From: a virus
Length of the DNA: 33,691 nucleotides
IMG/VR virus record: IMGVR_UViG_3300016457_001097
Location: 1-33,691 of that record
Direction: 5' to 3' (one strand)
Shown piece by piece: positions 2,643 through 33,691 of the stretch. The first letter of the stretch is position 1. Each line of letters starts with the position of its first letter. A program made the position numbers and the translations under genes. A model generated the notes under the pieces. The model searched no databases. It was not told the origin of the DNA and saw only the letters and a program-made list of their open reading frames with translations.

Positions 2643-2965
2643 TAAGAGATTGGTTTAGAGAGAATTTTCAGCACTACAGAATCTCAACAACCTTAAATGA
2701 AATCAACGAAACAGAGAAGACAGAAGTTTTTGTCTCACAGTTTATGGGCAGGATGAGAATCACAATAACAAATGAGATGACTGAACATGGATGGGTAGCA
2801 AAGAAAGATATAACACTCTTTACAGAGTATGGAGATCTCAATGTTGGAGATATTGTTGTTGATGCATACAGTCAGGAATTTCAGGTTCAGGAAATTTTAC
2901 CCATAAAGGATAATTTTGGAGTGGTGAATTATTACAAGGTGGTGCTCAATGAGTATAGAAGTTAG
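2639..2965 (+). CDS. Head closure / head-tail adaptor protein
   Basis: The protein has 108 residues, mostly beta, with a TEYGDLNVGDIVVDAYSQEF segment followed by a strand ending in YYKVVLNEYR. Small beta-barrel proteins at this position between a gp6-like connector and a gp10-like protein are head-closure proteins (SPP1 gp16 or lambda FII type). The start ATG overlaps the preceding stop as ATGA. Identification depends mainly on size and gene order. Confidence 0.65.
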   Translation: MIRDWFRENFQHYRISTTLNEINETEKTEVFVSQFMGRMRITITNEMTEHGWVAKKDITLFTEYGDLNVGDIVVDAYSQEFQVQEILPIKDNFGVVNYYKVVLNEYRS

Positions 2966-3368
2966 ATTAGTTTTGCATAATTTAGAGAGATTGGGAAAAG
3001 AGGGAGCACAGGCAGTTAGAAGGGGAATGAATAAATCAGCAATACTTATTGAAAGTGAAGCAAAGAGACTTTGTCCTGTTGATACTGGAAGATTAAAAAG
3101 TTCTATCACTCATATGTGGAGAGGTGGAGATGAGGTTGTTGTTGGGACAAATGTCAAATATGCAAGTTATGTTGAATTTGGAACAAGACCACATATGATT
3201 TTCCCAAGGGAGAAAAAGGCATTGTATTGGGATGGGGCAGAGCATCCAGTTAAACATGTTTATCATCCAGGAACAAAACCACAGCCATTTTTAAGACCCG
3301 CATATGAGAAATATAGAAAAATGATTCCAAAACTAATTAAGGAGGAGTTACGTGCTTTACATAGATGA
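2949..3368 (+). CDS. HK97 gp10-like neck protein
   Basis: The 139-residue protein has the signature of the HK97 gp10 family: an N-terminal helix, then the CPVDTGRLKSSI motif, a beta hairpin with VVVGTNVKYASYVEFGT, and a C-terminal PQPFLRPAYEK motif. Members act at the head-tail junction or tail completion. The ATG lies inside the previous gene, overlapping by 17 bases, which fits translational coupling. Confidence 0.9.
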   Translation: MSIEVRLVLHNLERLGKEGAQAVRRGMNKSAILIESEAKRLCPVDTGRLKSSITHMWRGGDEVVVGTNVKYASYVEFGTRPHMIFPREKKALYWDGAEHPVKHVYHPGTKPQPFLRPAYEKYRKMIPKLIKEELRALHR

Positions 3369-3696
3369 ATGGGTTAAGAATCAAATTAAAAGTCTCTTTC
3401 CTGATATAGATATTTACTTTGAATATCCAGAAAAGGAAATAAACTACCCAGCATTCATTTATTTTCCCGTGGTACTTGTTCCAGAGCTTAAGGGGGCATA
3501 TTCAAGAAGATATCAAATAGATTACTGGACTGATACAGCAAAGGATGGGGAAAGCAAGTTAAACACTCTTTTAGAGTGGACAGAGAGAAATTTCACAGAT
3601 ATATACAATCTTCAGTTGCTCTCTGCAGATTTGAAAAAAGAAGATGGAATGTGGAGAGCAACGATAGAGATAAGAATAATATTTCACAGACAATAG
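3352..3696 (+). CDS. Tail terminator / minor tail protein
   Basis: The protein has 114 residues and starts with GTG at 3352 behind AAGGAGGAG. An N-terminal helix with WVKNQIKSLFPDIDIYFEYP is followed by FIYFP, a Y-x-IDYW strand and a final RATIEIRIIF strand. This alpha-beta plan matches small tail terminator proteins of the lambda U / HK97 gp10-neighbour type that stop tail tube growth. It sits exactly between the gp10-like gene and the presumed tail structural genes. Confidence 0.65.
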   Translation: MLYIDEWVKNQIKSLFPDIDIYFEYPEKEINYPAFIYFPVVLVPELKGAYSRRYQIDYWTDTAKDGESKLNTLLEWTERNFTDIYNLQLLSADLKKEDGMWRATIEIRIIFHRQ

Positions 3697-3709
3697 GAGG
3701 TGAAATTTA

Positions 3710-4441
3710 ATGGCAAATCTTTTAAGCAAATCAGAAGTTTTGGCATTTTTAGATAGTGTGGCAGTTGGCTATCAGAGAGTATCAGCAGTGAAGGGGACAG
3801 GAACAGAAGAGAATACACAATCAAAACAGGCATATACAAACTTACAGAGAGTATTTGATACTAATAATTATGACATTATAAAGATGCTTATGGATGGAGC
3901 CTATCAAACTTATCAGAGGTCATTATCTGCTTATATCTATCAGGATTATCAACTCTTCTTGATGGCGATAAACAGAGCACAGAATAATAACCTTGATGCT
4001 TTTCTTACAAGCGAAGATGCGAGAATTCCAGAGGAGGTTGCAAACATGTATTCAAGTTTAGGTATCACAATTTCACCAGCGAATATACTCCCTCCAGCAG
4101 TTGAGAATATGGGAACATACGATTATGATACTTCAACCTTTACAGATGGAGATGCTATTGACACAACAAAGTATGGAAAAGCATTCATAAAAGTGAAACC
4201 AACAGTTACTGTTGGTTCTGGTTCTGATCTTGTTCTGACTGTAACTGTAAAGAAGATTGATGGCACAACTGAAGAAAAGACCGTTACAATTCCAGCAGAA
4301 ACAAGTGCAGGGACAGAATTCTTTGTTGGTGATGGGGTGAGTGATATGTATGTTGATGTTGTTGATTGTTCACATACATCAGGGAATGCTGGAGATAAGG
4401 TTCAATTCTTCAGTATATATGAAAGAACATTAAATGAGTAA
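3710..4441 (+). CDS. Probable major tail structural protein
   Basis: The 243-residue protein has an alpha-helical N-terminal half (repeated Tyr/Gln-rich helices) and a beta-rich C-terminal half with a LVLTVTVKKIDGTTEEKTVT strand pair. It has a strong AGGAGGTGAAA ribosome-binding site, as expected for an abundant structural protein. Position after the tail terminator and before the chaperones points to the tail tube or a tail-associated structural protein. The helical half is not typical of a tube protein, and the next gene could instead be the tube subunit. Confidence 0.5.
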   Translation: MANLLSKSEVLAFLDSVAVGYQRVSAVKGTGTEENTQSKQAYTNLQRVFDTNNYDIIKMLMDGAYQTYQRSLSAYIYQDYQLFLMAINRAQNNNLDAFLTSEDARIPEEVANMYSSLGITISPANILPPAVENMGTYDYDTSTFTDGDAIDTTKYGKAFIKVKPTVTVGSGSDLVLTVTVKKIDGTTEEKTVTIPAETSAGTEFFVGDGVSDMYVDVVDCSHTSGNAGDKVQFFSIYERTLNE

Positions 4442-15022: not shown

Positions 15023-15929
15023 ACTTTTAGAGGCAATTTACTCTTTTCCTTTTACAAAGAGAGAGTTTAAAATACTTCTCTATATGATTAGGTATTCATA
15101 CGGTTTTAATCAAAAAGAAGTTATAAATGGAGCAACAGATATCAAAAAAATCAGCGAAGAAACAGGAATAGAATATCACGATGTTTATAAAGTTATCCGT
15201 GATTTAGAAAATATGAATGTTTTAGGTAAAATACCTAAAGGTTGGCGAATAAACAAGATGTATAAAGGCTGGAAGCGATTAGGTAAATTACCTAAACCTT
15301 TAGGTAAAACACCTAAAAAATTAGGGAAATCACCTAAAATTTTAGGTAAAATACCTAAAACTACATCCAAGAAAAACACTTCAGAAAAGGAACGGATTGA
15401 CCCTCTAAAGAAAAGTATAAAGAAAACATATAAAGAAAAGAATATTACATCTACTAACGTAGATGTAGACGCTAAAAAACCAAATCCTGTTTATCAATTA
15501 GTAGAAGACTTTGCTCTGTTTAGAGGTATTCCGCTTGATAGGGGCTTCATCAACAAGAATGTTCAACATGCTAAAAGGTTGCTTAAACAATACCCGCCCG
15601 AGTTTATCGCTCAGGTCATCAAGTGGCGCCTTGAACATGATGACGGCTTCTGGCACTCCAAACTTAACAATTTAGGTATAGTCTACACGCACATTGCTGA
15701 GTGGATTGGCGAAATGAAGCGTGGAAAGAAAATCATCTCCTTTAAGAAATTCCTTGAACAGAACCCACACCTGGATTATAGACAATTGGAGAAGGGCACG
15801 AAGGAGAGAGAAATCGCTCTTTGGAGGGCTTTGAGAGAAGCGTATAAATCGGGGTATGTAGAATTTACCCCTAAGATGTTGGAAGTTTATAAATCCTTTA
15901 TTGAAGACTTTGAAAGGAGGAAACTTTGA
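14973..15929 (+). CDS. Lambda-O-like replication initiator
   Basis: The 318-residue protein has residues 1-95 matching the phage replication protein O N-terminal winged-helix pattern: GYTRIANELLEAIYSFPFTKREFKILLYMIRYSYGFN-like text with DIKKISEETGIEYHDVYKVI (recognition helix). Residues about 83-130 are a basic linker with LGKxPKx units encoded by the iterons at 15221-15359. The C-terminal half (about 165-318) is helical and may contact a helicase loader. In lambda, O binds iterons inside its own gene and starts replication; the same architecture is seen here. RusA and an unknown gene follow. Confidence 0.85.
   Translation: MNGNPQPEEGYTRIANELLEAIYSFPFTKREFKILLYMIRYSYGFNQKEVINGATDIKKISEETGIEYHDVYKVIRDLENMNVLGKIPKGWRINKMYKGWKRLGKLPKPLGKTPKKLGKSPKILGKIPKTTSKKNTSEKERIDPLKKSIKKTYKEKNITSTNVDVDAKKPNPVYQLVEDFALFRGIPLDRGFINKNVQHAKRLLKQYPPEFIAQVIKWRLEHDDGFWHSKLNNLGIVYTHIAEWIGEMKRGKKIISFKKFLEQNPHLDYRQLEKGTKEREIALWRALREAYKSGYVEFTPKMLEVYKSFIEDFERRKL
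15221..15359. other. Replication origin iterons inside the initiator gene
   Basis: There are five 19-bp imperfect palindromes of the form (T/A)TTAGGTA-N3-TACCTAAA at 15221, 15278, 15299, 15320 and 15341. The last four are spaced exactly 21 bp (two helical turns) and encode a 7-residue repeat LGKxPKx; the first stands 57 bp upstream. Copies 3 and 4 each have changes in an arm (CACCTAAA; AGGGAAA). An AT-rich stretch follows near 15410-15450. This matches the lambda ori plan. Confidence 0.88.
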
Positions 15930-16393
15930 GTCTTGAAGATATTGAGAAAGAATATGACAGGAAGTATGGCAACAAACCAGTGAGAGCGGGGAAACTTCTC
16001 GGGAGTGATCCTGAGGAGTTAAAAAAGATTGCCTTTAAGAATGCGAAAAAGATTCACGAACACAGGGTAATCATAGAGAATTTCCTAAATTCAAAAGGAG
16101 AAGCATTTTTTAAACTCAATCTCTGCCCGTTTATGGATTTTGAGAACATGGCTTTGAAAGGAAAACAATTGAAATATTTAGGATACAGGATAAATTGTGC
16201 TACGCAGTTCAACATTGACGCTATCAGATATAAAGTAGAATCTCCACATTTGAAAGTAGTAACAGAGCAAATGACTTTTGGATTTCCTTGTCCGAACAGA
16301 GAAAATTGTCCTTTAGAGAAATTTGTCAGAGCAATGAGAGAGAAAGAACTTGAGGAACTTCCAAAGAGAAAAAGAAAGGAGTTGGAGATATGA
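15926..16393 (+). CDS. Cys-containing protein at the lambda-P position
   Basis: The 155-residue protein starts with TTG at 15926 behind AAAGGAGG, overlapping the initiator stop. It has an N-terminal charged helix, then NLCPF, INCATQF and a final FPCPNRENCPLEKF; this C-x5-C pair with the earlier Cys could bind zinc or an iron-sulfur cluster. It lies where lambda encodes the helicase loader P, but no loader motif is visible. Function unassigned. Confidence 0.7.
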   Translation: MSLEDIEKEYDRKYGNKPVRAGKLLGSDPEELKKIAFKNAKKIHEHRVIIENFLNSKGEAFFKLNLCPFMDFENMALKGKQLKYLGYRINCATQFNIDAIRYKVESPHLKVVTEQMTFGFPCPNRENCPLEKFVRAMREKELEELPKRKRKELEI

Positions 16394-16803
16394 TTTCTTT
16401 CTTTGTCCCAGGGCACCCAGTTGGAAAGGAAAGACCTCGTTTGGGGAAGAGTGGAAATGTTTACACTCCTACAAAGACAAAACATTGGGAACACATGGTC
16501 GGTTTGATAGCAAATGAACACTTTAGAGATTTTACTTTTGAAGATGAGATTGGAGTTGCTCTGTTCTTCTTTTTGAAAGGAAAAAGAGGAGATATAGATA
16601 ACCTTGCAAAGTCAGTTCTTGATGGACTTCAAGGAATAGCATACAAAAACGATTCACAGGTGTATGTTCTTTTTGTTCAAAAAATCAGGGTGAACTATGA
16701 AGGTGATGAAGGGGTTGAGATAAACATATGGGATTTAAAAAAGGATGATTTGATTATTAAAGCAAAGCATACAAAAAGCGAGAAACTTTTAAGGAGGGTG
16801 TGA
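16390..16803 (+). CDS. rusA: RusA-type Holliday junction resolvase
   Basis: The 137-residue protein has the RusA family signature: the FFVPGHPVGKERPRLGK N-terminal motif, VYTPTKTKHWE, then the acidic catalytic segment GDIDNLAKSVLDGLQGIAYKNDSQV with the conserved aspartates. RusA proteins cut four-way junctions as dimers and help phages resolve recombination or replication intermediates. The ATG overlaps the upstream stop. Length matches the family. Confidence 0.93.
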   Translation: MISFFVPGHPVGKERPRLGKSGNVYTPTKTKHWEHMVGLIANEHFRDFTFEDEIGVALFFFLKGKRGDIDNLAKSVLDGLQGIAYKNDSQVYVLFVQKIRVNYEGDEGVEINIWDLKKDDLIIKAKHTKSEKLLRRV

Positions 16804-17048
16804 TGTTTAGCACAATAATTATAATCCTTGCTTATATATTTTTGATTGTCGGAAGCCTATGCGTTGCTTTGGGCTTCTGGCAGGATTGGGAGGAAGTTAA
16901 TAATGCCAAAAAACCGCCAAGAAATCACCAAAAACCAGAGAAGCCTTTCAGGGAAATCCTGAAATACGGCGGGATTTTTGGAAAAGTTGATAAGATAAAT
17001 CCTCACCCTTGGTTGCCAGATGGAGATGAGGAGGAAAGTGATGATTAA
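16803..17048 (+). CDS. Small single-span membrane protein
   Basis: The 81-residue protein has an N-terminal membrane segment (about residues 2-24, STIIIILAYIFLIVGSLCVAL) followed by a soluble Pro/Lys-rich tail and an acidic end. The ATG at 16803 overlaps the RusA stop and sits behind AAGGAGGGTG. No family is recognised. Short hairpins at 16850-16879 and 16946-16964 lie in the gene. Confidence 0.65.
   Translation: MFSTIIIILAYIFLIVGSLCVALGFWQDWEEVNNAKKPPRNHQKPEKPFREILKYGGIFGKVDKINPHPWLPDGDEEESDD
16850..16879 (+). repeat. Intragenic hairpin CGGAAGCC/GGCTTCTG
   Basis: GAAGCC (16852-16857) pairs with GGCTTC (16872-16877), extended outward by a G-U and a C-G pair. It lies in the membrane-protein gene. 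Confidence 0.5.
16946..16964 (+). repeat. Intragenic hairpin TTTCAGG/CCTGAAA
   Basis: A perfect 7-bp stem with a 5-nt loop in the same gene. With the 16850 hairpin it shows the stem-loop habit is not confined to 12-14 kb. Confidence 0.65.
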
Positions 17049-17343
17049 GGAGCAAATTTTTAAATTGATGGATGAGATATTAGGTGAGTATGAGTTTGAA
17101 AAGATAAAAATTAAATATGCGATAGAGGACAAAACTTTAAAAATAGAAGGGATTTGTGAATTTGAACCTGTCAATTTACATGTAGGATACACTATTGGTT
17201 TGGTAGATGAGTATGAAGATGAGATAGAAGAGGATGATTTAAAAGTGTATATAAGAACAGCATTAGAGTTTATAAAAGGCAAATTCTGGGATTTTCTTGT
17301 GCATCATTTAGGATATAAGTTTGACTATAAAGGAGGCAGGTGA
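17041..17343 (+). CDS. Hypothetical acidic protein, 100 residues
   Basis: The ATG at 17041 is chosen for the GATGAGGAGGAAAGTG leader; a reading from 17020 would overlap the ribosome-binding site. The protein begins with a helix (QIFKLMDEILGEYEFEK), has beta strands in the middle (KTLKIEGICEFEPVNLHVGY) and an acidic stretch, and ends with a helix with aromatic residues. No family recognised. Confidence 0.65.
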   Translation: MIKEQIFKLMDEILGEYEFEKIKIKYAIEDKTLKIEGICEFEPVNLHVGYTIGLVDEYEDEIEEDDLKVYIRTALEFIKGKFWDFLVHHLGYKFDYKGGR

Positions 17344-17579
17344 TGAATAGAGATACTTTTAGATGGGCTTTAATAGATGTATTAGGCTTATTGAAATTTG
17401 AATTGGAAAGAAAATTAGATGAGAATGGGCAAGATGATATTCTCTGGTTCAGAACAAAAGATGGAGAGATAAAGGCTCTCCCGCAAGTTACTATAAAGGA
17501 ATTAATTGAAAGATTTGATAAGTATATTGATGAGATAGCATTAACAGAGGAGGCGAACGATGTGGACACTAAAAGATAG
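17343..17579 (+). CDS. Hypothetical small helical protein, 78 residues
   Basis: The ATG overlaps the upstream stop (TGATG) behind AAAGGAGGCAGG. The protein is helical, with FRWALIDVLGLLKFELERKL and ELIERFDKYIDEIALTEE segments. No family is recognised and no enzyme motif is visible. Confidence 0.65.
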   Translation: MNRDTFRWALIDVLGLLKFELERKLDENGQDDILWFRTKDGEIKALPQVTIKELIERFDKYIDEIALTEEANDVDTKR

Positions 17580-17724
17580 TATATACTTTTTCCTTCTTGT
17601 CTGGGCAGGGGTAAGTATATTCCTCACGGTTGTGAATTTATTTTTGAAGAAGAACCTGAAAGAGATAGATAAGGGTGAAGCCATGAGCATAATTGATAAG
17701 GCAGGGAGGAGGGAGACAGAATGA
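17560..17724 (+). CDS. Small single-span membrane protein, 54 residues
   Basis: An ORF in a frame overlapping the end of the previous gene starts at ATG 17560 behind AGAGGAGGCGAACG and ends with an ATGA overlap with the next gene. The first 30 residues hold a membrane segment (IYFFLLVWAGVSIFLTVVNL) followed by a basic KK-rich patch, so the C-terminus should be cytoplasmic. It may be a lysis-control or superinfection protein; this is not proved. Confidence 0.6.
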   Translation: MWTLKDSIYFFLLVWAGVSIFLTVVNLFLKKNLKEIDKGEAMSIIDKAGRRETE

Positions 17725-17969
17725 GAAAAGAACTTACAAGAAAACAAATTGAGAAACTTAAAAAGGTTGTAAAGGAGATGAAAAACAGAACCGCCGAAGC
17801 ACTCACGGATGAGGAAATAAGAGAACTTGAAAAGGAAACAGAAGGGGCTGTCAGGTTGTCAGAAGAGGTAAGGTTGAGTGAGATTATGAAGGAGTATGAG
17901 GATTTACTGAAAGATATACACACGGCTTTATCAGTGATTTTGACTGAAATAGAGGAGGTGCTTGATTGA
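17721..17969 (+). CDS. Small coiled-coil protein, 82 residues
   Basis: The all-helical, highly charged protein (ELTRKQIEKLKKVVKEMKNR, then Glu/Leu-rich helices) overlaps the previous gene as ATGA behind GGAGGAGGGAGAC. No family recognised. It is the last gene before the palindromic control region at 17971. Confidence 0.65.
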   Translation: MRKELTRKQIEKLKKVVKEMKNRTAEALTDEEIRELEKETEGAVRLSEEVRLSEIMKEYEDLLKDIHTALSVILTEIEEVLD

Positions 17970-17970
17970 A

Positions 17971-17990
17971 TTGTATCATACATGATACAA
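17971..17990. promoter_or_regulatory. Perfect 9-bp inverted repeat (operator-like)
   Basis: TTGTATCAT-AC-ATGATACAA has perfect 9-bp arms around a 2-bp centre, the form of a dimeric helix-turn-helix repressor site. It begins two bases after the stop of the upstream gene and lies about 70 bp before the clamp-like gene, in one of the few gaps of the early region. Confidence 0.75.
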
Positions 17991-17998
17991 CATTCTTA

Positions 17999-18008
17999 AC
18001 AAATTTGT
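17999..18008. promoter_or_regulatory. Palindrome ACAAATTTGT, shared with 10940
   Basis: A 10-bp perfect palindrome identical to 10940-10949 and related to the direct repeats at 11591 and 11611. It lies 9 bp after the operator-like repeat. Occurrence in the three main non-coding gaps suggests a shared protein site, though short AT-rich words can recur by chance. Confidence 0.4.
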
Positions 18009-18061
18009 ATTGTATGAAGGACAAAAATACACAATTTTATTTTTGAAGGAGGGATGAAAAC

Positions 18062-18658
18062 ATGAAAACAATTTTAGACAGAATTGCTTTGGTGCTGGAG
18101 AATTTATTAACAACAGGGAGCCACAGGGAATACGAGGGGTATTTGAGAATAACAGCCAGCAAAGTTTCAGCAACAGATGGAAGGATATTGCTTGAAGTTA
18201 AAAATAACAATATGAAATTTTCTGATAGTGAGGGGGAAGTGTTTTTGTCTAAAAACCAGTTAAAAAAGATTAAAAAAGTCCTCGCAAAAGAAGTTGATAA
18301 GTTTATTGTTGAGAGAGTTGTTATACCATTTGAAGGGGAAGATGAAATAAAAGTTTTGATAGAAGATTATGAAGGGGAAACAGAGATGAAATTCCCTGCA
18401 AGAGATATTGATTATCCTGATACAGAGCAGATTTACAGAGATACAGAGCCGAAATTATCTGTTTCTTTTAGTCTTGCTGTGTTAAAAAAACTTATTGAGG
18501 TTTTATACAGGTTTAAACAAGAGACAGAGGGAATTAAATCTGACAGGGTGAAGTTCTTATTTTATGGAGAAGAAGAGCCTGTTGAGATAAGATATGAAAC
18601 AGAAGATACAGAAGTGAGAGGAGCTGTTATGCCGTTAAGGAGGGATAAAGATGATTGA
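18062..18658 (+). CDS. Mini sliding-clamp-like protein (DnaN beta-clamp fold)
   Basis: The 198-residue protein resembles the bacterial polymerase III beta clamp in order of motifs. An ITASKVSATDGRILLEV segment matches the ATDGHRLA region; FPARDIDYPDTEQIYRD matches FPDYRRVLP; and the end EVRGAVMPLRR matches the terminal YVVMPMRL. A complete beta clamp has about 366 residues in three domains; this is roughly half, suggesting fewer domains per chain. No DNA polymerase gene is visible here, so it may act with host enzymes or tether a phage protein. The leader is GAAGGAGGGATGAAAAC. Confidence 0.6.
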   Translation: MKTILDRIALVLENLLTTGSHREYEGYLRITASKVSATDGRILLEVKNNNMKFSDSEGEVFLSKNQLKKIKKVLAKEVDKFIVERVVIPFEGEDEIKVLIEDYEGETEMKFPARDIDYPDTEQIYRDTEPKLSVSFSLAVLKKLIEVLYRFKQETEGIKSDRVKFLFYGEEEPVEIRYETEDTEVRGAVMPLRRDKDD

Positions 18659-19061
18659 TTATAGAAAAGAAGTGCCGAGTTTGGAGTTATGCAAGAGGTT
18701 GAAAGAATTGGGTTTTCCTCAAGATGGTGGCGGGTGGTATTGGGTGAAGATTAAAAAAAGATGGAGATTGTGTTTAGATAATGATAGATTCAATGATTGT
18801 TGGGAAAAGGTAGAGAAAGTTATCAAAGCCCCCACAGTTGCAGAGATGGGAGAGTGGTTGCCCCCAGCCCTTAATTTGAAAGAAGGAGATGCCTATCTGA
18901 ATATAGATAGACCTGAAGAAAATCTCTGGATACTCTCTTATAGTTTGAGAGATAGTTTTATTTGCCCTATTGCTGTGGATGGAGAAACAGAAGCAAACGC
19001 TCGTGCGAAATTACTTATCTGGTTAGTAGAAAATGGATATATGAGTTTTAAGGAGGATTAA
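18651..19061 (+). CDS. Phage protein of the KAPTVAEMGEWLP family
   Basis: The 136-residue protein has LELCKRLKELGFPQDGGGWYW, KAPTVAEMGEWLP and a C-terminal ANARAKLLIWLVENG segment. I recognise this pattern from many uncharacterised phage and mobile-element proteins. Function is unknown. The start overlaps the clamp-like gene by 8 bases behind AAGGAGGGATAAAG. Confidence 0.75.
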   Translation: MIDYRKEVPSLELCKRLKELGFPQDGGGWYWVKIKKRWRLCLDNDRFNDCWEKVEKVIKAPTVAEMGEWLPPALNLKEGDAYLNIDRPEENLWILSYSLRDSFICPIAVDGETEANARAKLLIWLVENGYMSFKED

Positions 19062-19062
19062 A

Positions 19063-19536
19063 ATGAACCCCACAGAACGCTATATCAAGATGTGTGAGAA
19101 AGCGGAGGAGATACAGAAGGCATGGGAGCCTAAAGATTGGGATTGGGTTGCTGTGCCTAAAGAGTATAATATTTGGATTGAAGGTATACAAATAGGAGAT
19201 TATAGCGTTTTGGTATTAAGCGGTTATGAAACTGATTGTTATTACTACGGACCTGAAAGTGATATGTTTAATCCTGATTTAAATTTGGAAGAAATCTGTC
19301 CAAGCGAAGCAGAATTTAGGAAACACGCCATCTGGCTTCCCACACAAGAACAGTTGCAGGAGATGATGACAGATAAGGGTTATTTTAGATTCAGCTTGAT
19401 AGAATTATTTTACAGGTTTGTAAATAAGAACTACAAAAAGTTTTCTTCAATGAATGAACTTTGGCTTGCTTTTGTAATGTGGACAAAATATCACAAAATT
19501 TGGGACGATGAAAGAGAGGAATGGAGGAATAAATGA
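19063..19536 (+). CDS. Phage protein of the WLPTQEQLQEM family
   Basis: The 157-residue acidic, aromatic-rich protein carries AIWLPTQEQLQEMM in its second half and a helical C-terminus. The WLP-(R/T)-Q-(D/E)-QLQ-(E/D)-M motif occurs in uncharacterised phage proteins often encoded beside the KAPTVAEMGEWLP family, as here. Function unknown. ATG follows AAGGAGGATTAAA and the gene ends with an ATGA overlap with the thioredoxin-like gene. Confidence 0.7.
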   Translation: MNPTERYIKMCEKAEEIQKAWEPKDWDWVAVPKEYNIWIEGIQIGDYSVLVLSGYETDCYYYGPESDMFNPDLNLEEICPSEAEFRKHAIWLPTQEQLQEMMTDKGYFRFSLIELFYRFVNKNYKKFSSMNELWLAFVMWTKYHKIWDDEREEWRNK

Positions 19537-19775
19537 AAAAAGTCTTCGTGTTTGGCTCTAAACATTGCAAACCGTGTGAGGGGTGGAAAAGAATGCTAAA
19601 AGAAGCGGGGGTAAAATATGAATACATAGATGTTGAGGAAAATCCAAAAATGGCGAATGAGTATTTGGTAAACTCCCTGCCTACGACGATAGTTCTAGAT
19701 TCGGATAAGGTTAAATTTTTCTACGCAGGGGCAGGGAAGAAGGGACTAAAAGAATTAAAGGGGATTTTAAAATGA
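19533..19775 (+). CDS. Thioredoxin/glutaredoxin-like redox protein
   Basis: The 80-residue protein has a compact thioredoxin fold: the N-terminal strand KKVFVFGSKHCKPCEGWKRM with a C-K-P-C active site, YEYIDVEENPKMANEY, and the cis-proline segment SLPTTIVLD. It lies in an ATGA-coupled run directly before csf1 and in the same operon as the cysH-like gene at 22308. Thioredoxins and glutaredoxins are the normal electron donors of PAPS reductases, so a functional link is possible but inferred. It could also reduce a ribonucleotide reductase of the host. Confidence 0.88.
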   Translation: MKKVFVFGSKHCKPCEGWKRMLKEAGVKYEYIDVEENPKMANEYLVNSLPTTIVLDSDKVKFFYAGAGKKGLKELKGILK

Positions 19776-20386
19776 CAGTTCCAGAACTGATTTTTGACGG
19801 TATAGAGGTTGAGGAAGGGGATAAGAAGGGAGAATGTATTATATGTGGTAAACAGGTTTCTAACGGGTTCCTTTTCCCATTCTCGGATAATTTTGTAGGG
19901 TTCAGTGCGTTGAAATATGGGAATGTTCTTTGTCCGAAATGCTATGCATTTGTCAGAAATCAAAATTTCAGGAAGAGAAGTTTTGTAGCCACAAAGGGAA
20001 AAGTAGAGTTTCTAAAGAGGGATGAGATGAAGAAAAAGATTCTCTTCCCTCCAGAGCCTCCGTTCTTTATGTATCTCACTCACAGCCACCAAAAGCAGGG
20101 ATGGATTTTTGATTTGCAAAAAGTTTCTTTTTCAAGGGAGGATTATTTCTTATCAACAGATTTTTTTGATGGAGCGATCACAGTGAACAGATTAAAAGCA
20201 CTTGCGTACAACGGGTTAATAGAATTTTTGAGGGAAAAAGGAATATCAAAAACAGAGATAAGAACAGGGAATTTCAGTTCAAAAACATATATAAAAGCAA
20301 GAAAGGAGGGATTCATGGAAAAGATAATATCAGCGAAACATAAGGCTGGAATGCCTTTGTGGGAGGTGTTGGTTTATGTTAACTGA
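19772..20386 (+). CDS. csf1: Type IV CRISPR-Cas Csf1 (Cas8-like)
   Basis: The 204-residue protein has an N-terminal C-x2-C (Cys22, Cys25) and C-x2-C (Cys54, Cys57) zinc finger, followed by a RxRSF-like segment, an FLKRDEM stretch, then PPEPPFFMYLTHSHQKQGW. This plan (four-Cys finger, PP-PF-LT-S-QK motif, about 200-250 residues) matches Csf1, the large-subunit-like component of type IV effector complexes. The identification is strengthened by csf2 and csf3 downstream. The gene overlaps its neighbours by 4 and 11 bases, so it is translationally coupled. Confidence 0.85.
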   Translation: MTVPELIFDGIEVEEGDKKGECIICGKQVSNGFLFPFSDNFVGFSALKYGNVLCPKCYAFVRNQNFRKRSFVATKGKVEFLKRDEMKKKILFPPEPPFFMYLTHSHQKQGWIFDLQKVSFSREDYFLSTDFFDGAITVNRLKALAYNGLIEFLREKGISKTEIRTGNFSSKTYIKARKEGFMEKIISAKHKAGMPLWEVLVYVN

Positions 20387-20738
20387 TGAGGAAATCACAC
20401 AGGGAATGGCGGAGATACTCTTTCAGGTGTATAAGAATATACCTTGGAAGAAGTTCAGAGGGGTAGTGAATATAAGGGATATGTTCAACCATAGGGTTAG
20501 AAGCGCAAGTAGGAAACCAACACTTGAGATGTTTGTGAGTAAACTTTCAAATTATTTTGGTATCCAATCACTTCCAAATGAGATTGTAAGTGTCATAGAA
20601 AAGTTAAAACCAGAGGAGGAAAGGGCTTTAGAAAAGTTATACACAGAGCACATTTATTTGTGTGCTTTAGCATTCTTAAAATATGAAGAATTGAAAAAAC
20701 AAAGAAAAGAAAGGAGGAGTATGTTTAATGAGAATTAA
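20376..20738 (+). CDS. cas11: Cas11-like small subunit of the type IV module
   Basis: The 120-residue protein is predicted to be all helix, with a basic middle (FNHRVRSASRKPTLEMFVSK) and a charged C-terminus (EELKKQRKERRS). Type IV-B loci encode a helical small subunit (Cas11) between csf1 and csf2, exactly this position and size. Cas11 proteins diverge strongly, so the call rests on gene order and helical content. ATG 20376 lies inside csf1, and the end overlaps csf2. Confidence 0.65.
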   Translation: MLTDEEITQGMAEILFQVYKNIPWKKFRGVVNIRDMFNHRVRSASRKPTLEMFVSKLSNYFGIQSLPNEIVSVIEKLKPEEERALEKLYTEHIYLCALAFLKYEELKKQRKERRSMFNEN

Positions 20739-21585
20739 ATTTGAAGGAAAAATAGTTGCAAAGACTCCAATATTTCATGGAGGAGATGAAAAAACAGGGT
20801 CAACACCAATTTTGAGAACAATTACAATTTATGATTCAAAAGAGAATAGAAATTACATCCTTCCATACATTTCAGGAAATTCAATCAGAGGGAAACTGAG
20901 AAGATTGATTATGCATGATTTCTTTACAAGGCTTGAATATGAACCAGATTTGAAACTCCATCACATTTTCTATTCTGGTGGAGTTCTTGAAACAACAGAG
21001 AAGATGTATGGAAATGTGGATTTGGAGTTGAGAAAAAATATCAGAGATTTCATAATTCCACTTTCGCTTTTTGGGGCATCAGTGGGAAATCAGGTTCTTA
21101 CAGGGAAATTGCAGGTTGGTCATATCTTCCCAGTGTGCAAGGAATATGCAGGTTTCCTTCCAGAGGAATTCAGAAAATTAGAGGCGAGCAAAAAAAGTGT
21201 GAGACTCTTTACAGATGATAGTTTCATCACTCGCAGAGACGACATGAATGTAGAAAGAGATGTTGACGAACAGGCAGTCCAAATGAAAGTAGATTATGAA
21301 TGTTTTATCCCAGGGACAATTTTTTATCACTGGTTTGCTCTTGACTATCCAACAGAATTAGAGATGAGCTGTTTTGGACACATGATAAGCCTATTTAGGG
21401 AAACTCCATTTCTTGGAGGAAGGAGTTCACAGGGAGATGGAGAAGTTGAATTTGAATACACTCCAGAAATACCAGATGAGAACAAGTATCTTGAATTTCT
21501 AAAAGAAAACAAAGAAGACATAAAGAAGGTTCTTGATGATATTAAATTGAGATTCACATCTATGAAGGTTCCCAAAAATGATTGA
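20728..21585 (+). CDS. csf2: Type IV CRISPR-Cas Csf2 (Cas7-like backbone)
   Basis: The 285-residue protein begins with KIVAKTPIFHGGDEKTGSTP, the typical type IV Cas7 start, then YISGNSIRGKLRRLIMHDFF (residues 48-67), the conserved Ser-Gly-Asn-Arg-Gly-Arg RAMP motif that contacts RNA. The end has FLGGRSSQGDGEVEFEY, a RAMP glycine-rich segment. Cas7 copies form the helical backbone that holds guide RNA. The ATG follows AAAGGAGGAGTATGTTTA and overlaps the previous gene by 11 bases. Confidence 0.93.
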   Translation: MRIKFEGKIVAKTPIFHGGDEKTGSTPILRTITIYDSKENRNYILPYISGNSIRGKLRRLIMHDFFTRLEYEPDLKLHHIFYSGGVLETTEKMYGNVDLELRKNIRDFIIPLSLFGASVGNQVLTGKLQVGHIFPVCKEYAGFLPEEFRKLEASKKSVRLFTDDSFITRRDDMNVERDVDEQAVQMKVDYECFIPGTIFYHWFALDYPTELEMSCFGHMISLFRETPFLGGRSSQGDGEVEFEYTPEIPDENKYLEFLKENKEDIKKVLDDIKLRFTSMKVPKND

Positions 21586-22345
21586 GGAAGAGGTAAGGTA
21601 TTTTCTGAAAAAGTTTGAAAGTTACTCTACGAGATTTTATACCTTCACTCCATTTAGGCTCACATTTTACCTCAAGGCTCCCATGTGTCTTACACATCCA
21701 TGGATGCATCTTGATAGTTTGATATTACACTTCTACATGAAGAGAGTTTTAGGACAGGATTACTTTCTTCTACCGAGTAAGTTTCCAATTGGAAGGCTTA
21801 TGAGGGATAGAAAGGATTTGGCGATAACTCCACTGAAGAAGACAAAAGAGAACTTGTATCACGCTTCAGTCTCTTTTTTCAACAAGGATGAGAAGAGAAG
21901 CGAGACGCTCTACAAAAGGTTTGAGGATAGATGGATCCCAAAAACAAGAAGAAAGAAGATTACAAGGGGAAGCGGATACTACAAGGATTTTGCCATGAGA
22001 ATGGTGTATATACTCGCTGATGAGGTTGTTTTCTATGGAAATGGGGACATAGAGGAAATAGGAGATATTTGCACAGAGATCACAGCACTTGGAAATGATA
22101 CCCGTGTAGGGTGGGGAGCAGTGAGAGATTTCAAGATAGAGCCTGTGAAGGAAGATTGGAGCATAGTTGCAGAGGGGAAAGCGATGAGACCAATCCCCGT
22201 AAGGTTTTTGAAGAAATACACAGAGGCGGTATATCTTGCGTGGAAGAGTCCGTATTGGGCGAGCGAGAGTGTTGATTTGTGCGCAGTTCCGGGTTCGGAG
22301 GTGGAACTTGGAGAAGATTTGGAAAGAGACATTTTTGGCTCATAG
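21578..22345 (+). CDS. csf3: Type IV CRISPR-Cas Csf3 (Cas5-like)
   Basis: The 255-residue protein has FRLTFYLKAPMCLTHPWMHLDSLILHFYMKR-like text (in part: APMCLTHPWMHLDSLI), diagnostic of Csf3, the Cas5-like RAMP that caps the 5' handle of guide RNA. A glycine-rich segment, TALGNDTRVGWGAVRDF, lies near residue 175. The start overlaps csf2 by 8 bases. A clear second RAMP protein next to csf2 makes the type IV assignment strong. Confidence 0.92.
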   Translation: MIEEEVRYFLKKFESYSTRFYTFTPFRLTFYLKAPMCLTHPWMHLDSLILHFYMKRVLGQDYFLLPSKFPIGRLMRDRKDLAITPLKKTKENLYHASVSFFNKDEKRSETLYKRFEDRWIPKTRRKKITRGSGYYKDFAMRMVYILADEVVFYGNGDIEEIGDICTEITALGNDTRVGWGAVRDFKIEPVKEDWSIVAEGKAMRPIPVRFLKKYTEAVYLAWKSPYWASESVDLCAVPGSEVELGEDLERDIFGS

Positions 22346-23006
22346 CAAAACAAGTTTGTTTAAAAAGAAAGTCATAGAGGCAAAGGAAATAATCAGGGAT
22401 GCTCTGAAGAGATACAAAAAACCATACATTGCTTTTTCAGGTGGAAAGGATTCTACCTGTGTATTACATCTTGTATTGAAATTTAGACCAAACATTCTTG
22501 TATATCATTTTTATTTTGGAAAGTATTTTGTCCCAGAGGATATGGAAAAACAAGTGATAGAAAATGCAAAAAAGATTGGTGCAAACAGATTGATGGTTAG
22601 GACTTCAAAACAATATGATGTTTTAAAGAGGGATGCAAGAAATGTTCTTGGCAGATACTACAAAAAAGTTATGGAGCCTTGGTTTATATCGCATGGTTAC
22701 GATTGTTCATTTCTTGGTATTAGAAAGCAGGAGTCCGCAAAGAGAAACAGAAAGGTAAAGTATGGTTTTGCTATGAGTAAGAAAATCAAAGAGATATATC
22801 CAATTCAGGATTGGAGTTGGCTTGATGTGTGGGCATACATAATTGGAAATAATCTTCCTTATCTTTCTTTCTATGATGATTATGGAAAAGTTGTTGGTTA
22901 TGACCAAGTGAGATTTACCACATTTTTTGATGATGAATTTGCCAAAGTTGGTTCTTCTAATATAGATGGAATTCTCATGTGGAGATTTAAAAATATAAAG
23001 GATTGA
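22308..23006 (+). CDS. cysH: CysH-like PP-loop protein of type IV-B locus
   Basis: The 232-residue protein has the ATP pyrophosphatase (PP-loop) motif SGGKDST at residues 44-50, then IGANRLMVRTSKQYD and FLGIRKQESAKRNR, the PAPS reductase family signature. The C-terminal ECGLH cysteine motif of catalytic PAPS reductases is not visible; the chain ends soon after YDQVRFTTFF. CysH-like genes are the characteristic companion of type IV-B csf loci. TTG 22308 is chosen for the CGGAGGTGG leader; an ATG at 22236 would overlap csf3 by 110 bases. It closes the csf operon. Confidence 0.85.
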   Translation: MEKIWKETFLAHSKTSLFKKKVIEAKEIIRDALKRYKKPYIAFSGGKDSTCVLHLVLKFRPNILVYHFYFGKYFVPEDMEKQVIENAKKIGANRLMVRTSKQYDVLKRDARNVLGRYYKKVMEPWFISHGYDCSFLGIRKQESAKRNRKVKYGFAMSKKIKEIYPIQDWSWLDVWAYIIGNNLPYLSFYDDYGKVVGYDQVRFTTFFDDEFAKVGSSNIDGILMWRFKNIKD

Positions 23007-33329: not shown

Positions 33330-33691
33330 ATGTATAAATATATAGTAAGGAAGTATTATGCTACAAAGGAAGATTTCCTTGATGCTTTATGGCAATTTCT
33401 TTATGACATAGGATGGGAATTATGGGATAATCAGGACAGTAATAATTATAGAGTTTACAGGACAAAAGGAAGCACAGATTTCTCAAACGGGTTGTATGGA
33501 TATATAAAAATAAGGTGGGATTCATCAAAACTGTATTTTAGAGCATATTATAATTGGGACAATACTAACCACAATGGAACTGGTTATGTTTGTGAGGGTT
33601 ATCAAACTTTCAGTGATAGCCTTTATGCTTGGATGTATGGTAATGAAAATTTCTTCATTCTGAAATATAAAATAGGAACAAATTATTATCA
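33330..33691 (+). CDS. Virion appendage-like protein, N-terminal part (continues at 1)
   Basis: The ATG at 33330 follows GAGGAGGCGGACA. The frame runs open to the contig end and, after the 99-bp repeat is removed, continues at position 2 to the stop at 928, giving 396 residues. The visible N-terminus (MYKYIVRKYYATKEDFLDAL, then W/Y/N-rich text) has no signal peptide, unlike the gene before it. See the entry at 1-928 for the C-terminal modules. Confidence 0.85.
   Translation, partial: MYKYIVRKYYATKEDFLDALWQFLYDIGWELWDNQDSNNYRVYRTKGSTDFSNGLYGYIKIRWDSSKLYFRAYYNWDNTNHNGTGYVCEGYQTFSDSLYAWMYGNENFFILKYKIGTNYY
33593..33691. repeat. Terminal 99-bp direct repeat, right copy (contig closure)
   Basis: This is the exact second copy of bases 1-99. 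It lies inside a coding sequence and its length resembles an assembler k-mer overlap. A true short direct terminal repeat cannot be excluded from sequence alone, but a gene broken at both ends and whole only on the circle argues for closure. Confidence 0.93.

Follow-up and report, generated by a model that had tools for sequence, protein, structure and literature searches.

The initiator gene of this phage very probably carries, embedded within it, the theta-replication origin of a bacterial siphophage, with an ori-lambda-like layout, and a comparison of about 110 relatives suggests that residue 70 of the initiator's recognition helix reads the iteron site. The window, i.e. the whole 33,691-base record IMGVR_UViG_3300016457_001097, has identical ends (99 bp, 1-99 and 33593-33691) and is therefore probably a complete, circularly mapping genome. 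It codes for a terminase, a portal, a capsid, a tape measure and a peptidoglycan amidase, and is thus that of a tailed phage of a bacterium, with its main genes all on one strand.

The array between 15221 and 15359 comprises five palindromes of 19 bp with steps of 57, 21, 21 and 21 bp, four of the copies standing at exact 21-bp steps, as the initial annotation had described. Perfect dyads with 8-bp arms were found in the copies at 15221 and 15341; two others have 7/8 arms and the copy at 15320 is degenerate. With up to 3 mismatches allowed, TTTAGGTANNNTACCTAAA matched 5 times in the whole window, always in the array, where 0.28 matches were expected and none of 100 shuffles did as well. A simpler measure, the number of dyads of any sequence with a 3-bp centre within 140 bp, was not significant, at least 5 dyads being present in 313 of 5000 synonymous shuffles. 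Generic dyad clustering was then dropped as a significance test and replaced by a sequence-specific array score combining shared sequence and periodicity; the score of the initiator gene was matched by 0 of 150 synonymous-codon shuffles. The improbable feature of the array is its shared sequence plus periodicity, not the dyads as such.

Table 1 Features of the putative origin and its surroundings (positions in the window).
Feature	Start	End	Strand	Basis or remark
O-like replication initiator gene, 318 aa	14973	15929	+	PF04492, PHROG
Recognition helix, residues 68-80; D70 codon 15180-15182	15174	15212	+	AlphaFold2; residue-70 covariation
Iteron 1	15221	15239	.	TTTAGGTAAAATACCTAAA; in wing-coding part; encodes residues 83-89
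Iteron 2	15278	15296	.	ATTAGGTAAATTACCTAAA
Iteron 3	15299	15317	.	TTTAGGTAAAACACCTAAA
Iteron 4 (degenerate)	15320	15338	.	ATTAGGGAAATCACCTAAA
Iteron 5	15341	15359	.	TTTAGGTAAAATACCTAAA
Spacer, array to predicted unwinding element, atypically long	15360	15403	.	Weakest-DNA position
Predicted DNA unwinding element	15404	15453	+	Weak DNA, tandem repeat, aligned in five relatives
Palindrome TACATCTACTAACGTAGATGTA just after unwinding element	15446	15467	.	Dyad search
Helical C-terminal domain, residues 172-317	15486	15923	+	AlphaFold2, block pLDDT 53-86
155-aa protein in lambda P position	15926	16393	+	Gene position

The initiator exhibited a Phage_rep_O domain (PF04492) with an E-value of 1.6e-15 and 57.8 bits, well over the cut-off of 28.7, which bears out its earlier description as rep-O-like. 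It also matched the PHROG family 'replication initiation O-like' (E 1.4e-19), and with 45.1 bits fell narrowly under the TIGR01610 cut-off of 45.5. An AlphaFold2 model built with 46 family sequences predicted a winged helix, with a block pLDDT of 93-97 over residues 51-100 and wing strands at residues 84-87 and 90-93, followed by a low-confidence linker and the helical C-terminal domain, which presumably binds a partner. The palindromes had been placed in the linker; this holds for iterons 2-5, which encode it, while iteron 1 codes for part of the wing. Alignment of the C-terminal domain with lambda-type O C-termini by hhalign was not significant (E 0.088 over 23 columns). A fold search returned only generic winged-helix matches, none of them with E < 0.001 in the PDB, and searching the PDB by sequence gave no solved structure for the Phage_rep_O family.

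The DNA 3' of the array was predicted to contain an unwinding element. Only 0.0009 of the 50-bp windows of the genome are weaker than this stretch, within which three TAAAGA repeats of 12-13 bp lie at 15406-15444. In the family, the 36 bp of lowest stability within reach on the 3' side start 4 bp after the array (median of 110 non-redundant loci), and in 88 of the 110 they are weaker than the DNA 5' of it. The element is displaced to 44-53 bp after the array in this phage (53 bp), Geobacillus phage GBK2 and the loci L030, L135 and L161, and these five align there. A displaced weak region (26-61 bp) was also seen in six other loci and was absent in four other loci with Asp or Glu at residue 70. 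The displacement marks a GBK2-like subgroup, yet is not confined to it. Similar hairpins to the palindrome following the element were present 3' of the element in lambda, L110, L267 and L106, the enrichment in the family being modest (33/105 loci, compared to 9/105 in shuffled sequences and 21/105 upstream).

The short motif AAAGA, counted on the coding strand, reached 29.4 per kb in the 110 bp after the array, compared to 3.0 upstream and 2.7 further downstream. We counted 342 occurrences after the array versus 171 (maximum 188) in synonymous shuffles, with a strand bias of 354 on the top strand versus 10 on the bottom. The motif is present in 105 of the 110 loci and is read in all three phases. 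These features bear on the possibility that the array is an operator, bound by the O-like protein to repress its gene or set its timing, while replication starts elsewhere. Winged-helix proteins are often regulators, binding inside the gene could block transcription, and strand opening at the element is a prediction. However, the weakest DNA and a strand-polar AAAGA lie directly 3' of the array throughout the family, as in lambda, where this layout of array and 3' weak DNA is a proven origin (PMC7466680, PMC3349717), and repression could coexist with an origin function. We therefore consider a purely regulatory role very unlikely.

GC skew along the genome showed no inflection at the iteron array; this check, proposed with the initial annotation, is uninformative because the main genes all run one way and the skew is positive throughout. 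The skew rises from roughly 0.13-0.25 to 0.36-0.45 at about 16000-19500, just after the origin gene, which may be due to gene content and not to replication.

Relatives were gathered by protein only: 80 loci came from viruses, 80 from bacterial genomes belonging to several phyla, and others from two additional viral sets; alignments were needed for this, as a query of the viral contigs with the O gene's single protein gave no match. Terminase relatives, followed as a path to sister phages, comprised one contig with an identical terminase and one with 47% identity, neither record having an O gene. After removal of near-duplicates the first viral set contained 42 loci, to which this phage, GBK2 and lambda were added. 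Significant palindromic arrays lie inside the gene in 36 of the 42 as well as in the three added phages, and likewise in 53 of the 80 loci from bacterial genomes and in 109 of another 156 viral ORFs, the viral and genome sets overlapping in part between scans. Array detection and half-site centring were automatic and sometimes off by a base. Palindromic arrays are thus a property of the O-like family. The initial annotation had proposed a lambda O/ori architecture with a different iteron, and had named the absence of iterons from relatives with the same gene as evidence against it; they are present in most, which favours that reading.

The sequences of the iterons differ among relatives, while the position of the array in the gene is the same. 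In 110 non-redundant arrays the first copy stands at codon 116 and the step is 23 bp (medians); 92 of them end with a step of 23 or 24 bp, compared to 21 bp in this phage. More than one reading phase was found in 97 of the 110 arrays (and in 37 of the 39 arrays of the first viral set and the three added phages), which makes the uniform, single-frame array of this phage unusual within the family. One relative, L084 (O-like ORF 2950-4188), has sixteen iterons with a repeated series of spacings, a pattern that block duplication of the array would give.

The iteron core GGTAAAAYACC is common to this phage, GBK2 and Bacillus-group prophages. A DNA-only scan of viral contigs for two GGTAAAWYACC cores, made without protein information, returned 16 stretches, with an O-like protein encoded at the array in four of them (L014, L015, i.e. 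GBK2, L018 and L025); L018 and L030 are one contig. The exact iteron pair of this phage was not found in the viral contigs. Repeats of ACCGGGTAAAACACC stand in tandem, with steps of 12 and 24 bp, in L016 (11016-11064) and L019 (9359-9407), contigs without an O-protein match.

We then compared the recognition helix with the half-sites. Under a strict symmetry filter, the covariation analysis at first comprised only 18 loci. In the training set of 51 loci, the recognition-helix residues covaried above average with the half-site bases, residue 70 and base 5 being the strongest pair. The rule is that Asp or Glu at residue 70 goes with G at base 5, His, Lys or Arg with C, and Asn or Gln with T. The Asp/Glu-G and His-C predictions were fixed before new loci were fetched, whereas the Asn/Gln-T and Lys/Arg-C extensions were added after the data had been seen. 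Among 53 new loci with less than 75% identity to the training set, His-C was observed in 18 of 20 and Asp/Glu-G in 2 of 3; the Asp70 miss (L242) is on the same contig as L014 and its array was mis-centred by the script, the cores reading GATGGT. For the extensions, the counts among these new loci were 8/8 for Asn-T, 4/4 for Lys-C, 2/2 for Arg-C and 2/2 for Gln-T. With all data taken together, 74 of 86 loci obey the rule, compared to a shuffled mean of 39.8 and a maximum of 55 in 20,000 shuffles. The 12 exceptions include lambda (Arg70, base T) and a group with Asn70 and GTCTCT.

To control for relatedness, a tree was built that left out the recognition helix; the domain being about 100 aa long, the resolution of the tree is poor. 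It gave 16 phylogenetically independent pairs whose members belong to different classes; their base 5 is not the same in 14 of these, the rule holds for both members in 13, and column 70 ranked first among all columns. Candidate codes at residues 67, 68, 72, 73 and 76 were weak and mixed with relatedness, and are not claimed. On the complementary strand, the rule would amount to ordinary contact chemistry (acid with C, base with G, amide with A). The covariation points to binding of the initiator to the iterons and to an Asp-C contact.

These data also bear on the idea that a flexible (LGKxPKx)n linker is what was selected, grown by tandem duplication, the palindromes being a side effect of its codons. 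Each iteron copy of this phage indeed reads LGKxPK in one frame, the five copies having the same residues at 5 of 6 positions, and GBK2 encodes a similar V-G-K-x-P-T repeat. Against this, most related arrays mix reading phases, L030, the closest by protein, reads the same core in all three phases, the last GBK2 copy is out of frame, and the iterons covary with the DNA-reading residue 70. The exact synonymous codons of the LGKxPK copies, given the amino acids and the codon usage of the phage, have a probability of 2.7e-11, although a recent duplication would lower this value too. We regard selection on the linker as highly improbable. DNA function and protein linker had been described as locked together; the peptide is present in every copy, but the lock is a local coincidence of the 21-bp step. 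The mixed phases and differing sequences across the family indicate that the DNA is conserved, and the LGKxPK peptide is therefore a by-product.

For the embedded origin we propose the following mechanism, in which dimer binding, O-some formation, opening and helicase loading are drawn by analogy with lambda. The N-terminal winged helix, presumably as a dimer, would bind each palindrome, with Asp70, near the start of the recognition helix, reading the C that pairs with the second G of TTAGGT, half-site base 5. The bound iterons would form an O-some, the strain of which would open the predicted unwinding element, and the A-rich strand with its TAAAGA repeats would then be captured. In lambda-type phages each iteron is bound by O, which also binds single strands rich in A/T, and two iterons and the AT-rich tract are enough for unwinding (PMC7466680); the lambda iterons are bound by O dimers (PMC5043065). 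The C-terminal domain would finally recruit the host replicative helicase, either directly, via a host loader or via an unrecognised phage protein, e.g. the 155-aa product of the next gene.

Searches of the genome for the lambda P, DnaC/IstB-type, DnaB_2 and DnaB families (PF06992, PF01695, PF07261, PF03796) gave no match. As neither P nor another loader nor a phage DnaB was found in the genome, membership in an O-P module is not claimed. The 155-aa protein has no relative in Pfam, PHROG, NCBIfam, viral contigs or phages, and its participation in helicase loading is only a guess from its position. That the array is an inherited relic which has lost its origin role, as the missing loader and helicase families, the degenerate copy 4 and the unusual last step of 21 bp might suggest, is scarcely credible given the intact initiator gene, the two perfect palindromes, the unwinding element and array in register with relatives, the residue 70 still matching the iteron, and the host helicase and loader that phages can use.

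Beyond this phage, it seems reasonably probable that the Phage_rep_O family shares one origin grammar. Residue 70 would set base 5 via the opposite strand (Asp/Glu-C, His/Lys/Arg-G, Asn/Gln-A), AAAGA would be strand-polar whatever the iteron and maybe read single-stranded by a conserved component, and the window would fall in a subclass with an element displaced by about 50 bp. The residue-70 rule is a simple, testable statement of how O-type initiators choose their origin, and would be of use in predicting the origins of many bacterial prophages from their protein sequences. As a candidate signal in single-stranded DNA, the AAAGA repeat would have a role comparable to that of the DnaA-trio of chromosomal origins. 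Neither was found described in the open PMC subset, an incomplete literature.

Several other features of the genome were noted. Tandem repeats of 42 and 126 bp make up a gene at 935-2125, whose product repeats a D-T-x-R-x-x-K-K-like motif; no clear family was found for it. The 198-aa protein at 18062-18658 weakly matches phrog_947, a DNA polymerase processivity factor family (E 0.022), and better phrog_3007, labelled RusA-like (E 6.9e-10), a label that looks doubtful because a true RusA lies at 16390-16803. At 19772-23006 the phage carries a type IV-B-like CRISPR-Cas effector cassette (PADLOC E-values: csf1/Cas8 1.3e-34, Cas11 3e-29, csf2/Cas7 1.6e-72, csf3/Cas5 2.5e-60), followed by a CysH-like PAPS reductase (Pfam E 1.2e-17); csf2 has a single distant match in the phage collection, in Skermania phage SPI1. 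A small glutaredoxin/thioredoxin-like protein directly upstream (19533-19775) is possibly the redox partner of the CysH-like protein. Type IV-B cassettes are known from prophages, some lytic phages and Bathyarchaeia viruses (PMC10848311). An archaeal host, suggested by the latter, was rejected, since the endolysin is a peptidoglycan amidase and every O relative listed has a bacterial host. The 'thermophile-like' label of the initial annotation reduces to composition (an IVYWREL index of about 66 °C) and the iteron kinship with a Geobacillus phage.

That phage, GBK2 (NC_023612, GBK2_45), shares with ours the GGTAAAAYACC core, an Asp at position 70 and a displaced unwinding element (by 44 bp in GBK2), and its initiator is 40.7% identical over the first 84 residues. 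It has seven copies of GTTGGTAAAAYACCAAC, the seventh out of frame, in contrast to the single-frame array of this phage, and its outer half-site is GTT versus TTA. Its O-like gene is followed by annotated helicase loader and DnaB genes, of which none was found in the genome of this phage. L030 (IMGVR_UViG_3300028908_000221) and the Bacillus-group prophages L135 and L161 also have the same core, Asp70 and a displaced TAAAGA-repeat element, but their steps are 22 or 31-33 bp in mixed frames (22 bp in L030). In L030 the next gene encodes an ATPase that weakly matches DnaC/DnaI-like families.

The half-sites of lambda are TCCCTC versus TTAGGT, its steps 20, 24 and 23 bp versus a uniform 21 bp in one frame, and its weak tract starts 5 bp after the array versus about 53 bp. 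Lambda has a P gene, none being found here, and breaks the residue-70 rule, which this phage (Asp70, TTAGGT) obeys. In both, the initiator has an O-type N-terminus and its gene contains palindromic iterons of 17-19 bp, with an AT-rich strand-polar tract and a palindrome 3' of the iterons (PMC3349717, PMC7466680). Judged from its sequence, the layout of origin and initiator is of the already known lambda O/ori kind, of which this phage appears to be an ordinary member.
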